Origin: Bradyrhizobium lablabi
GTDB lineage: Bacteria; Pseudomonadota; Alphaproteobacteria; Rhizobiales; Xanthobacteraceae
Assembly: GCF_018129385.1 (NCBI RefSeq)
Contig: NZ_JAFCLN010000001.1
Coordinates: forward strand, 1 to 64,000
Direction: 5' to 3'
DNA: 64,000 nt
Under the pieces are notes generated by a model. The model saw nothing but the letters and a program-made list of their open reading frames with translations, did no database searches and was not told the DNA's origin. The position numbers were made by a program, and so were the translations under genes. Positions 641-5,749 of the stretch are shown in pieces. The stretch's first letter is position 1; every line of letters starts with the position of its first letter.

Positions 641-763
641 ATGCTGATTCGCAGCGATTTGGTTGGAATTCGGGACGGGGCGGGCATCCGCACCCCTGCA
701 ATTCCGGCTGCGACCCTGCCGACCCTCCTTATTGGCGGGCTTCTGCTTCTTATCGGCCCCTGA
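641..763 (+). CDS. leuL: Leucine-rich leader peptide of leuA (LeuL-like)
   Basis: This 40-codon frame starts with ATG at 641, seven bases after an AAAGGG ribosome binding site (628-633), and ends with TGA at 761-763. Its last residues are TLPTLLIGGLLLLIGP: four consecutive leucine codons (740-751) and seven leucines in the last thirteen codons. The stop falls inside the left arm of a hairpin region that lies between the peptide and leuA. A short peptide loaded with codons for the pathway's end product, followed by alternative hairpins, is the classic signature of transcription attenuation of amino-acid biosynthesis genes. The call rests on sequence only; the peptide was translated by hand and is too short to appear in usual gene calls. 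Confidence 0.75.
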   Translation: MLIRSDLVGIRDGAGIRTPAIPAATLPTLLIGGLLLLIGP

Positions 764-822
764 GGGCCGTCTGGGCGGTTTGCGCCTGGGCACTCAGGGG
801 TTGCATGAGTTCGAGAAAACCC
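755..822 (+). promoter_or_regulatory. Candidate leuA attenuator hairpins
   Basis: Several mutually exclusive stems can be drawn. CCCCTGAG (757-764) pairs with CTCAGGGG (793-800), enclosing an inner stem (769-777 with 783-791, including G-U pairs). Alternatively GGCCC (755-759) pairs with GGGCC (764-768), or GGGTT (798-802) pairs with AACCC (818-822). The leader stop codon lies inside the first left arm, so ribosome position would choose between structures. There is no clear T-run after 800, so whether this ends transcription or works at translation is unresolved. Confidence 0.5.
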
Positions 823-867
823 TTCAGCGCCCGACGACATGGCGCACTACCCAAAGGAATTTTGCAG

Positions 868-2728: not shown

Positions 2729-3730
2729 ATGCGCAGATTGATTTTGGCCGCCGCGTCGGTCGCAGCCTTGGCTCTGGCCGGTCCGGCCTCGGCACAATCG
2801 CCGATCGTCATCAAGTTCAGCCACGTGGTCGCCACCAACACCCCGAAGGGGCTGGCTGCCGAAAAGTTCAAGGAGCTCGCCGAGAAATACACCAACGGCA
2901 AGGTGAAGGTCGAAGTCTATCCGAACTCGCAGCTCTACAAGGACAAGGAAGAGCTGGAAGCGCTCCAGCTCGGCGCCGTGCAGATGCTGGCCCCGTCGAA
3001 CGCCAAATTCGGCCCGATCGGCGTGAAGGAATTCGAGGTATTCGATCTGCCTTACATCCTTCCCGACCTCGCCACCGTGCGTAAGGTCACCGACGGTCCC
3101 CTCGGTCAGAGAATGCTGAAGCTGCTCGAGCCGAAGGGCATGATCGGTCTTGCCTACTGGGACAACGGCTTCAAGGAGATGAGCGCCAACAAGAAGCTGA
3201 TCTCGCCCGCTGATTATCGCGGCCTGAAATTCCGCATCCAGTCATCGAAGGTGCTGGAAGCCCAGTTCCGCGGGCTCGGCGTGGTGCCGCAGGTGATGGC
3301 GTTCTCGGAAGTCTACCAGGCGCTTCAGACCGGCGTGGTGGACGGGCAGGAGAACACCTGGTCGAACATCTATACCCAGAAGATGCACGAGGTGCAGAAG
3401 TACATCACCGTCACCAATCACGGCTACATCGGTTACATTGTGGTCGTGAACAAGAAGTTCTGGGACGGCCTGCCGGCTGATGTCCGCGAGCAGTGCGAAA
3501 AGGCGATGAAGGAAGCTACCGCCTACGGTAACGGCCAGTCGCAAAAGGAAAACGACGATGCGCTTGCCGAGATCGTCAAGACCGGCAAGAGCGAGATCAT
3601 CAAGCTGACACCCGAGCAGGATTCTGCGATGCGCAAGGCGATGGAGGGCGTCTACAAGGACGTCGCCGGCCGCGTCGGCCAGAAGCTGATCGACGAGTTC
3701 ATGAGCGCAGCCAAGGGCGCGACGAACTGA
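2729..3730 (+). CDS. dctP: TRAP transporter periplasmic solute-binding protein
   Basis: This 333-residue protein starts with a signal peptide ending about residue 23 (ASA-Q) and continues with the DctP fold: IVIKFSHVVATNTPKGLAAE, PNSQLYKDKEELEALQLGA and the YRGLKFRIQSSK segment, whose arginine normally pairs with the substrate carboxylate. It captures a C4-dicarboxylate or related organic acid in the periplasm for the DctQM membrane complex. GGGAGG lies at 2720-2725, just before the ATG. A 13-bp perfect stem follows the stop, which probably stabilises the binding-protein message relative to dctQM. The exact substrate cannot be read from sequence. Confidence 0.92.
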   Translation: MRRLILAAASVAALALAGPASAQSPIVIKFSHVVATNTPKGLAAEKFKELAEKYTNGKVKVEVYPNSQLYKDKEELEALQLGAVQMLAPSNAKFGPIGVKEFEVFDLPYILPDLATVRKVTDGPLGQRMLKLLEPKGMIGLAYWDNGFKEMSANKKLISPADYRGLKFRIQSSKVLEAQFRGLGVVPQVMAFSEVYQALQTGVVDGQENTWSNIYTQKMHEVQKYITVTNHGYIGYIVVVNKKFWDGLPADVREQCEKAMKEATAYGNGQSQKENDDALAEIVKTGKSEIIKLTPEQDSAMRKAMEGVYKDVAGRVGQKLIDEFMSAAKGATN

Positions 3731-3742
3731 GTTGATGCTATC

Positions 3743-3770
3743 GGGCTTCCGTGCCACGGCACGGAAGCCC
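3743..3770 (+). terminator. Strong stem-loop between dctP and dctQ
   Basis: GGGCTTCCGTGCC (3743-3755) is followed by AC and then its perfect complement GGCACGGAAGCCC (3758-3770). No T-run follows, so it is more likely an mRNA-stabilising or partial-termination element. That is a known way to raise binding-protein output above the membrane subunits. Confidence 0.6.
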
Positions 3771-3848
3771 TCGCATGTCCGGGGCACGGCGAAACAGGCC
3801 GCGAGGGAATGAAGGTGAGGCGACGAGGCCTGACCTGAAGGGGGGACA

Positions 3849-4427
3849 TTGATATTGCTTCGCATCCTCGACCGGCTTGAGGAGATATTGATCGCGACGC
3901 TGATGGCGCTCGCGACCACGATCATCTTCATCGCGGTGTGCCACCGTTATCTGCTCGGCGTTCCCTTCCTCTTCCCGATCCTGTTCCCGATCAACCTGTC
4001 CTGGGCGCAGGAGCTCTGCATCTACATGTTCGTCTGGGTCGCCAAGTTCGGCGCCGCCTACGGCGTGCGCACCGGCATCCATGTCGGCGTCGACGTCGTG
4101 GTCAACCAGGTCAAGTCGCCCTGGAAAAACGCGATCGTGCTGTTCGGCCTCTTGTGCGGCGCGTTCTTCACCGCCGTGATCGGCACCATGGGCGCAAAAT
4201 TCGTCTACGGTCTCTACCACACCGATCAGGTATCGCCCGACCTCGAGATCCCGAGCTGGTTCATCTACCTCTGCATTCCGCTCGGCTCTTACCTGATGTG
4301 CTTCCGCTTCCTCCAGGTCGCCTGGAATTACTTCTTCACCGGCGAGCTGCCGCATCACGACCACGCCCATGTCGAGGGTGTTGACGTCACGGAGCCCGGG
4401 ATCGGCGCCGGGGAGGTGACGCGATGA
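3849..4427 (+). CDS. dctQ: TRAP transporter small permease subunit
   Basis: This 192-residue membrane protein has four hydrophobic segments (roughly residues 10-32, 44-64, 88-110 and 130-155), matching the DctQ small subunit. Motifs include FVWVAKFGAAYGVRTGIHVG, typical of the DctQ second helix region. The start is a TTG after an AAGGGGGG ribosome binding site; no better ATG lies nearby in frame. The last codons overlap the dctM start (ATGA at 4424-4427), implying translational coupling. It partners DctM in the inner membrane and is driven by the sodium or proton gradient. Confidence 0.88.
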   Translation: MILLRILDRLEEILIATLMALATTIIFIAVCHRYLLGVPFLFPILFPINLSWAQELCIYMFVWVAKFGAAYGVRTGIHVGVDVVVNQVKSPWKNAIVLFGLLCGAFFTAVIGTMGAKFVYGLYHTDQVSPDLEIPSWFIYLCIPLGSYLMCFRFLQVAWNYFFTGELPHHDHAHVEGVDVTEPGIGAGEVTR

Positions 4428-5749
4428 CCTCGCTCTTCATCTTCGGACTGCTGATCCTGCTGATGCTGACCGGCATGCCGATCTCGATCGCGCTCGGCCT
4501 GACGGTGCTGACCTTCATCTACACGATGACGAATGTGCCGACCGAGTCGGTCGCGCTGAAGCTGTTCACCGGCATCGACAATTTCGAGATCATGGCGATC
4601 CCGTTCTTCATCCTCGCCGGTAATTTCCTCACCCACGGTGGCGTCGCCAGACGCATGATCAATTTCGCGACCTCCATGGTCGGGCATTGGTATGGAGGAC
4701 TGGGCCTCGCGGGCGTGATGGCTTGCGCGCTGTTCGCCGCCGTGTCCGGCTCGTCGCCCGCCACCGTGATCGCGATCGGCGCGATCATGATGCCGGCGAT
4801 GGTGAAAGCGGGATTCCCGAAACGTTTCGGCGCCGGCGTCATCACCACATCAGGAGCGCTCGGAATCCTGATCCCGCCCTCGATCGTAATGGTGATCTAT
4901 TGCGTGGCGACCGGGGGCAGCATCGCGCTCGATCCCGCCGGCCAGCGCGTGTCGTCGGCTTCCGTCGGCCAGATGTTCATGGCCGGCGTGATCCCCGGCC
5001 TGATGCTGGCGACGCTGCTCGGCATGACCACCTTCTATCGCGCCTGGCGCAACGATTATCCGCGCATGCCGAAGGCGAGCTGGGCCGAGCGCATCGTCGC
5101 CTTCCGCAAATGCATGTGGGGATTGCTGCTGATCTTCATCGTGCTCGGCGGCATCTATGCCGGCGTGTTCACGCCGACGGAAGCGGCCGCGATCAGCGCG
5201 GTCTACGCCTTTATCATCGCCGTGTTCGTCTACAAGGACATGTCGCTCAGGGACGTGCCGAAGGTGCTGCTCGGCTCGGCCAACATGAGCGCGATGATCC
5301 TCTATATCATCACCAACGCGGTGCTGTTCTCGTTCCTGATGGCGAACGAAAACATTCCGCAGCAGATCGCCAACTGGATCACCTCGGTCGGCGTCAACTG
5401 GATCATGTTCCTGCTGATCGTCAACATCCTGCTCCTGCTCGCCGGCAACTTCATGGAGCCGTCTTCGATCGTGCTGATCATGGCGCCGATCCTGTTTCCG
5501 GTGGCGGTCAAGCTCGGCATCCATCCGGTGCATCTCGGCATCCTGATGGTGGTCAACATGGAGGTCGGCATGTGCCACCCGCCGGTCGGCCTCAACCTCT
5601 ATGTGGCTTCCGGCATCGCCAAGATGGGCATCACGGAGCTGACGATCGCGGTGTGGCCGTGGCTGCTGACCATGCTGATCTTCCTCGGCATCGTCACCTA
5701 CATCCCCGAACTGTCGCTGTGGCTGCCGCGCGTGCTCGGCATGCTCTAA
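4424..5749 (+). CDS. dctM: TRAP transporter large permease subunit
   Basis: This 441-residue protein has about twelve hydrophobic segments and the DctM signatures MAIPFFILAGNFLTHGGVA near the N-terminus, SGSSPATVIAIGAIMMPAM, ALGILIPPSIVMVIYC and a C-terminal HPPVGLNLYV. It forms the transport path for the substrate delivered by DctP. It overlaps dctQ by four bases and ends the operon. No hairpin terminator is evident after its stop. Confidence 0.94.
   Translation: MTSLFIFGLLILLMLTGMPISIALGLTVLTFIYTMTNVPTESVALKLFTGIDNFEIMAIPFFILAGNFLTHGGVARRMINFATSMVGHWYGGLGLAGVMACALFAAVSGSSPATVIAIGAIMMPAMVKAGFPKRFGAGVITTSGALGILIPPSIVMVIYCVATGGSIALDPAGQRVSSASVGQMFMAGVIPGLMLATLLGMTTFYRAWRNDYPRMPKASWAERIVAFRKCMWGLLLIFIVLGGIYAGVFTPTEAAAISAVYAFIIAVFVYKDMSLRDVPKVLLGSANMSAMILYIITNAVLFSFLMANENIPQQIANWITSVGVNWIMFLLIVNILLLLAGNFMEPSSIVLIMAPILFPVAVKLGIHPVHLGILMVVNMEVGMCHPPVGLNLYVASGIAKMGITELTIAVWPWLLTMLIFLGIVTYIPELSLWLPRVLGML

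Follow-up and report, generated by a model that had tools for sequence, protein, structure and literature searches.

The region upstream of leuA in the stretch of Bradyrhizobium lablabi DNA analysed here (64,000 nt in total, hereafter the window) contains an element which is probably a cis-acting, leucine-responsive translational attenuator of leuA, the gene for the committed step of leucine synthesis. Comparison between genomes supports a leader peptide with a run of leucine codons, a hairpin (P1-P3) and, outside the genus, a base stem (P0) in which the leucine codons pair with the Shine-Dalgarno (SD) sequence of leuA. Judged from these sequences, the element is real and class-wide, and the comparative evidence marks it as functional. 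The initial annotation of the region had proposed attenuation-type control of leuA, and an alignment of leuA upstream regions from relatives, the comparison it suggested, supports this with a conserved Leu run and compensatory changes in the main stem.

Leader peptide, spacer and leuA

All the features described here lie on the forward strand. The leader open reading frame (641-763; 40 codons, ATG start, MLIRSDLVGIRDGAGIRTPAIPAATLPTLLIGGLLLLIGP, TGA stop at 761-763) encodes a peptide with the leucine-rich C-terminus LLLLIGP-stop, and is preceded by a ribosome binding site, AAAGGG, at 627-632, 8 nt before the ATG. The 40-codon peptide with its own ribosome binding site and the four consecutive leucine codons, all described previously, are indeed present; the latter, CTT CTG CTT CTT at 740-751, double as the left strand of P0. 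No family in NCBIfam or Pfam matched the leader peptide. The leader stop is followed by an untranslated spacer of 104 nt and by leuA itself (868-2433), which profile matches identify as 2-isopropylmalate synthase with the LeuA_dimer allosteric domain, its product passing the curated cut-offs of NF002087 and TIGR00973. The right strand of P0 (853-867) consists of the leuA SD sequence, AAAGGA at 853-858, and the start-proximal segment.

Conservation and distribution of the element

The close set comprises the best 80 leuA loci from a scan of genome contigs, the titles of which are mostly Bradyrhizobium, with a few Afipia and Hyphomicrobiales and one labelled Frankia. Together with the window this gives 81 loci, 79 of which have enough upstream DNA (that of L009 and L039 is too short). 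A leader with the Leu run is kept in all 79, window included, each time with an ATG start and with the TGA stop inside P1, and AGGG precedes the leader ATG in the aligned close loci. The close-set alignment (A1, without the duplicate L014) is nearly invariant from the last Leu codons through the 3' strand of P1, and a second alignment (A2) holds the 46 distinct sequences of the 79. The ratio pN/pS in the close set is 0.84 for the body of the leader against 0.39 for its last 12 codons, which also hold the RNA stem.

Beyond the close set, LeuA was located at E-values up to 1e-100 in 133/150 genomes of the order and 75/80 genomes of the family, and the upstream DNA of 80 of these loci, 40 per search, makes up the wider set. 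Of these 80 genomes, 79 carry the motif ahead of leuA, the exception being L157. One wider locus (L083) has the same sequence as a close one (L037); the 158 rows of genus and order hold 156 distinct sequences, and the 215 rows that include the class hold 213. Four genomes of one family of the order (f24; G023, G069, G105 and G136) have neither a LeuA of this type at E-values up to 1e-100 nor a match to the motif. Two wider loci (L111 and L113) have TGG in place of the TGA stop, so that their leader extends to ..PWGP-stop, with the P1 pairing retained. The alignment A3 omits these two loci as well as L086 and L089, which are near-duplicates by eye, and includes just three cores from the close set.

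A covariance model built from 78 cores (R2) took the place of an earlier, narrow model (R1), which had matched 31/385 class genomes. A search of 289 class genomes with R2 yielded 81 matches, and 77 of them lie directly upstream of LeuA on the same strand, at a distance of 47-421 nt (median 78); one of the remaining matches is on a contig other than that of LeuA, and three are in genomes in which LeuA was not detected. With strict filters, under which LeuA was identified at E-values up to 1e-120 in 136 class genomes, 77 of these have an R2 match upstream and 59 do not. Every one of the 61 genomes with a match among 398 phylum genomes is labelled as the same class or closer, and the sole other match in the window's own genome has an E-value of 3.9. 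The match in Paracoccus denitrificans reaches only 17.7 bits (E-value 0.0095). From the class, 73 loci were eligible, 60 were fetched and 57 were analysed, L172, L188 and L220 being left out since the stop pattern is missing. Two class loci, L180 and L191, have a 118-aa open frame between the leader and leuA.

The element thus precedes leuA in 77 of the 136 class genomes with this type of LeuA at the thresholds used, yet it fits no Rfam family. The covariance models of Rfam 15, at gathering level, identified only a tRNA in the window and nothing at the leuA locus, and a search of positions 500-900 gave only two matches, both sub-threshold and unrelated. The element seems to be a control element of wide distribution whose way of working would be unusual and testable, and the covariance model can be used for its annotation.

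The hairpin P1-P3

The hairpin starts with P1, in which CCCCUGAG (757-764), containing the last codons of the leader and its stop codon, pairs with CUCAGGGG (793-800) in 8 perfect pairs in the window. It continues with P2 (GCC at 766-768, partner 789-791) and P3 (UGGGC at 772-776, partner 784-788), the 3' strands of P3 and P2 adjoining each other at 784-791. Covariation identifies P1 and P2, and covariation together with folding identifies P3 and the joint 3' segment. The placement of the leader stop codon within the left arm of the stem 757-764/793-800 was already part of the initial annotation, and both the pairing and compensatory changes in it were found. In the order alignment, 96.6% of the P1-P3 cells are paired (shuffled 87.7), 97 cells are double-changed (shuffled 28.7; slid controls at most 43) and the covariation score is 0.311 (shuffled 0.159; slid controls at most 0.101). 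None of 500 shuffles, which ignore relatedness, reaches the P1-P3 values in any of the three measures.

The near-invariant sequence of the close set leaves P1 with no covariation to score there, and the first four C-G pairs of P1 are invariant in the order alignment and variable in the class. Across all loci, P1 (CCCC or CCUC plus the next codon) has 7/7 pairs in 210/215 (79/79 close, 78/79 wider and 53/57 class), while 2.3% of shuffled 7-mers find a 7/7 partner in order and class. The 3' strand mostly follows the stop codon: UCA is the partner in 183/201 loci with UGA, CUA or UUA in 6/8 loci with UAG, and UUA in 2/4 loci with UAA. Similarly, CCUC stands opposite GAGG in 4 of the 5 loci which have it.

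A hairpin of this kind could be the binding site of a regulatory protein, with translation of the leader being incidental. The near-invariance in the close set of the core after the stop, and the conservation of the unpaired A3 columns 33 (G) and 35 (C), each at least 90%, would suit such a protein. Against it, all 79 close leaders retain their start codon, their Leu run and the place of their stop, and P3 is free to vary in sequence in the order alignment; protein binding is quite improbable.

Search for a terminator

Compared with a classical attenuator, the leader with its Leu run is present, while the GC-rich terminator hairpin with a U-run is missing in the genus and order. None of the 158 loci of genus and order has 5 T in the 8 nt following P1 (maximum 4), so the earlier remark that no clear T-run follows the stem is true of the window and of all these loci. 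Likewise, no T-run follows the hairpin P4 (described below) in any of the 79 close loci. A terminator consensus scan of positions 400-900 gave two weak sites, at 508-524 and 642-656 (shuffle mean 0.8), and none at P1 or P4.

Were leuA controlled by transcriptional attenuation of the classical kind, an intrinsic terminator, either P1 or the 3:4 hairpin, would form unless stalled ribosomes prevented it. The leader peptide, the regulatory codons and the mutually exclusive predicted stems would all be in agreement with this. However, intrinsic termination is unlikely because of the missing U-run after P1 in 158/158 loci, on which ground a terminator at P1 was ruled out for the genus and order, and it leaves the covariation of the SD region described below unexplained. 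On the other hand, 5/57 loci of the class have a T-rich stretch behind P1, with 5 or more T in a window of 8 nt, and L220, outside the 57, has TTTCTTTTTC at this place; because of such loci we rate intrinsic termination slightly higher than otherwise. The initial annotation held that the mechanism, be it termination or translation, may be unusual, and the missing U-run points to translation over intrinsic termination.

The 104-nt untranslated spacer of the window and the lack of a U-run would also be suited to Rho-dependent attenuation, whether translation of the leader or its stop governs the access of Rho to the spacer or a masked leuA start leads to Rho-dependent polarity. Rho is compatible with masking of the SD and would possibly act downstream of it. 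This explanation is rather unlikely, considering that the spacer varies widely in length and sequence and that the covarying SD stem would be left unexplained.

Pairing of the leucine codons with the leuA Shine-Dalgarno sequence

In the predicted fold of the window, the part of P0 pairing 743-746 with 864-867 has a probability of 0.96 at both 28 °C and 37 °C, and the part pairing 747-751 with 855-859 has 0.39-0.50 at 37 °C and less than 0.25 at 28 °C. The pairing was assessed across genomes with a swap test, in which each genome's Leu run is paired with its own SD region and with the SD regions of other genomes, the permutations ignoring phylogeny. The native combinations are more stable both in the order (79 loci; -13.6 vs -12.1 kcal/mol, z -5.6) and in the class (57 loci; -13.9 vs -10.9 kcal/mol, z -8.3), with 0/5000 permutations as low in either case, and control segments in order and class give z between -1.6 and 0.1. 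In Paracoccus denitrificans, nine perfect pairs join UCCUUCUUC of the Leu run to GAAGAAGGA before leuA. For the close set the test gives no support to the pairing of Leu run and SD (z -1.1). One of its control segments, located 19-45 nt ahead of the SD, reaches z -5.3, which may be either a confounding effect of two clades or a real contact. Because of these two values, the genus alone neither proves nor excludes P0.

The predicted accessibility of the SD was compared before and after cutting the 5' end past the Leu run or at the stop. Covering the Leu run raises it from 0.25 to 0.44 in the order (47 loci up and 9 down of 79). The class starts at 0.37 and reaches 0.57 if the sequence is cut where the run ends and 0.54 if it is cut at the stop, the latter cut raising the value in 34 of the 57 loci and lowering it in 14. 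The close set goes from 0.41 to 0.44 with the Leu run and to 0.50 with the stop region (35 up and 12 down of 79); in this model, the rise tracks the stop region and hardly the Leu run.

The predicted probability of the SD pairing with the Leu segment is also higher for native than for shuffled segments: 0.50 vs 0.27 in the order, 0.40 vs 0.23 in the class, and 0.16 vs 0.08 in the close set, where synonymous variants give 0.10. The native value exceeds the mean of the shuffles in 49/79 order, 28/57 class and 30/79 close loci (33/79 against synonymous variants), and exceeds every shuffle in 18/79 order loci (12 shuffles) and 10/57 class loci (20 shuffles). The effect is a mean effect resting on part of the loci. 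In some class loci (within L164-L223), the SD pairs with codons further upstream.

Choice of codons in the leader

All 158 loci of genus and order have CTT at codon -4, and 146 of them have CTT or CTC at codon -5. Among the 57 class loci, codon -4 is taken by CTT in 52 and by CTA in 5, and 31 have CGA (Arg) at codon -5, the run then reading Leu-Arg-Leu (for example in L174, L184 and L204). From the codons, this use of CGA at -5 and CTA at -4 would be a thinner leucine sensor, a point against the mechanism favoured below. Of the 2604 Leu codons that the leuA genes of the 80 close loci contain, only 0.5% are CTT, compared with 6/141 in four genes of the window. Rarity is an unlikely reason for its choice, as TTA and CTA are rarer still in those leuA genes, yet hardly used in the Leu run, and CTC, which is decoded by the same tRNA as CTT, is absent at codon -4 in the 158 loci; the CTA found at this codon in five class loci is a counterpoint.

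The place of the last leader codon is taken by CCC in all 158 leaders of genus and order, the codon after it being TGG in L111 and L113. One explanation for this would be sensing by the nascent peptide, as in TnaC, with the peptide arresting the ribosome at the Pro codon and stop in response to a metabolite. The Pro is however not conserved in the class, since 5/57 loci have CTC (Leu) as the last codon, four of them with a compensating change in P1, and the leader of Paracoccus ends in Arg. In addition, the body of the peptide drifts, as its pN/pS indicates, and CCC is explained by RNA pairing. A TnaC-like arrest peptide was consequently rejected as a candidate, and we consider it highly improbable.

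Alternative pairings and proposed mechanism

Two further pairings compete with P1-P3 in the predicted fold of the window: a small hairpin, 754-759/764-769, which has the stop codon in and next to its loop (probability about 0.77 at 37 °C and 0.35 at 28 °C), and a long 2:3 pairing of AGGGGUU (796-802) with AACCCUU (818-824; 0.71-0.77 at 37 °C and 0.32-0.35 at 28 °C). The fold is predicted to have two competing global states of similar weight, P1-P3 with a hairpin at 827-845 leading at 28 °C (0.65) and the small hairpin with the 2:3 pairing leading at 37 °C (0.77). The two competing stems described in the initial annotation are therefore both predicted, the third stem being slightly longer than claimed (796-802/818-824), but covariation supports only P1-P3. 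ACCC occurs within 40 nt after P1 in 53/79 close loci (shuffled mean 22.4). The hairpin P4 (GCGCC/GGCGC, 827-831/841-845) comes from the consensus fold of 78 rows, in 8 of which the pair 831-841 changes from C-G to U-A. Masking of the SD by the CCU at 820-823 had only a weak effect in the first accessibility scan of the close set, and was dropped as the main model.

In the translational attenuator that we favour, a ribosome would read through the Leu codons when leucine is sufficient, finish the leader and depart, after which P1-P3 and P0 would form and mask the start of leuA. A shortage of Leu-tRNA would stall the ribosome on Leu codons -7 to -4, where it would cover the anti-SD strand and, given a footprint of normal size, also the foot of P1. 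With the anti-SD strand covered, the leuA start would be free and translation of leuA would be on. In the genus of the window, for which the SD contact is weak, the 2:3 pairing and P4 probably constitute a second switching layer, and masking might have a Rho-dependent consequence. Our confidence in this mechanism is slightly lowered because the rise in accessibility in the close set follows the stop region.

Comparison with known systems

The leader of the enterobacterial leu operon is a classical attenuator, with a run of Leu codons in the leader peptide and alternative stems. The present element shares the Leu-run leader peptide and the alternative stems, and differs in having no U-run after P1, no Rfam match and a proposed action on translation. 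The erm leaders are translational attenuators in which stalling of a ribosome in the leader opens the start of the gene that follows. A stalled leader ribosome would do the same here, with the difference that the signal would be a shortage of Leu-tRNA and that the stalled codons would themselves be the masking strand.

By analogy, the closest known system appears to be the LEU element upstream of actinobacterial leuA, described as having a Leu-run leader, internal helices, a pseudoknot, and a base stem between the Leu codons and the leuA SD (Seliverstov et al. 2005, PMC1262725). Both elements have the Leu-codon leader and the internal helices, both are located upstream of leuA (77/81 class matches here), and the base stem has its counterpart in P0, with z -5.6 in the order, z -8.3 in the class and no support in the close set (z -1.1). 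The parts of PMC1262725 drawn on here describe no terminator for leuA either. The folding used here excludes pseudoknots. The likeness, which rests on the published description, is one of outline of design between Actinobacteria and Alphaproteobacteria; in the latter, P1 is highly conserved and contains the leader stop codon. As far as these parts of the paper go, its authors favoured a binding protein, whereas ribosome stalling is favoured here; for the LEU element too, stalling would be a simple explanation in place of protein binding, and one that can be tested. Earlier mutations in the leuA leader of S. coelicolor, as cited in the same source (PMC1262725), behaved unlike classical attenuation; if the analogy holds, this report would also count against reading the present element as a translational attenuator.

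A branched-chain amino acid leader peptide from the same class precedes a different gene, ilvB (Vitreschak et al. 2004, as cited in the text of PMC1273637). The literature searched, the scope of which left older subscription papers on attenuation outside, contained no description of the present element in Alphaproteobacteria; Vitreschak 2004 and Lopatovskaya 2010 may hold earlier predictions. Searching by term, leuA was absent from the main text of the B. japonicum papers on start sites and small ORFs (PMC4842269 and PMC5082802), and was not mentioned where the main text was searched among PMC10117765, PMC1273637, PMC2864571, PMC6429828, PMC2573895 and PMC4833913.

Taken more broadly, and held tentatively, though with a fair chance of being wrong, the comparison may indicate a class-wide regulator that Rfam does not contain, whose leucine-sensing codons would be the very nucleotides masking the leuA start, so that a stalled ribosome would open the gene without a terminator. 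The design would then be shared by alphaproteobacterial and actinobacterial leuA, through either ancient descent or convergence.

Flanking features

A candidate promoter region (528-564) consists of the blocks TTTTGGCATTGCG (528-540) and TTTCTCGTCTAGAA (551-564), which are largely conserved in the 79 aligned close loci; a scan with the sigma-70 consensus identified no promoter-like site, including at these blocks. Upstream of the putative promoter, the inverted repeat TAGGTCA-N7-TGACC (506-524, arms at 508-512 and 520-524), also largely conserved in the 79 close loci, is a candidate operator. Another inverted repeat, AACCGT-CA-ACGGTT at 592-605, lies between the putative promoter and the leader, and the close set conserves all of it but position 601. 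Downstream of leuA, in the same orientation, lie genes for a TRAP transporter (2729-5749 of the window): dctP, a small permease with a weak match, and dctM. Palindromic intergenic stretches, which by eye resemble dispersed repeats, are found at about 350-460 and 2440-2560.
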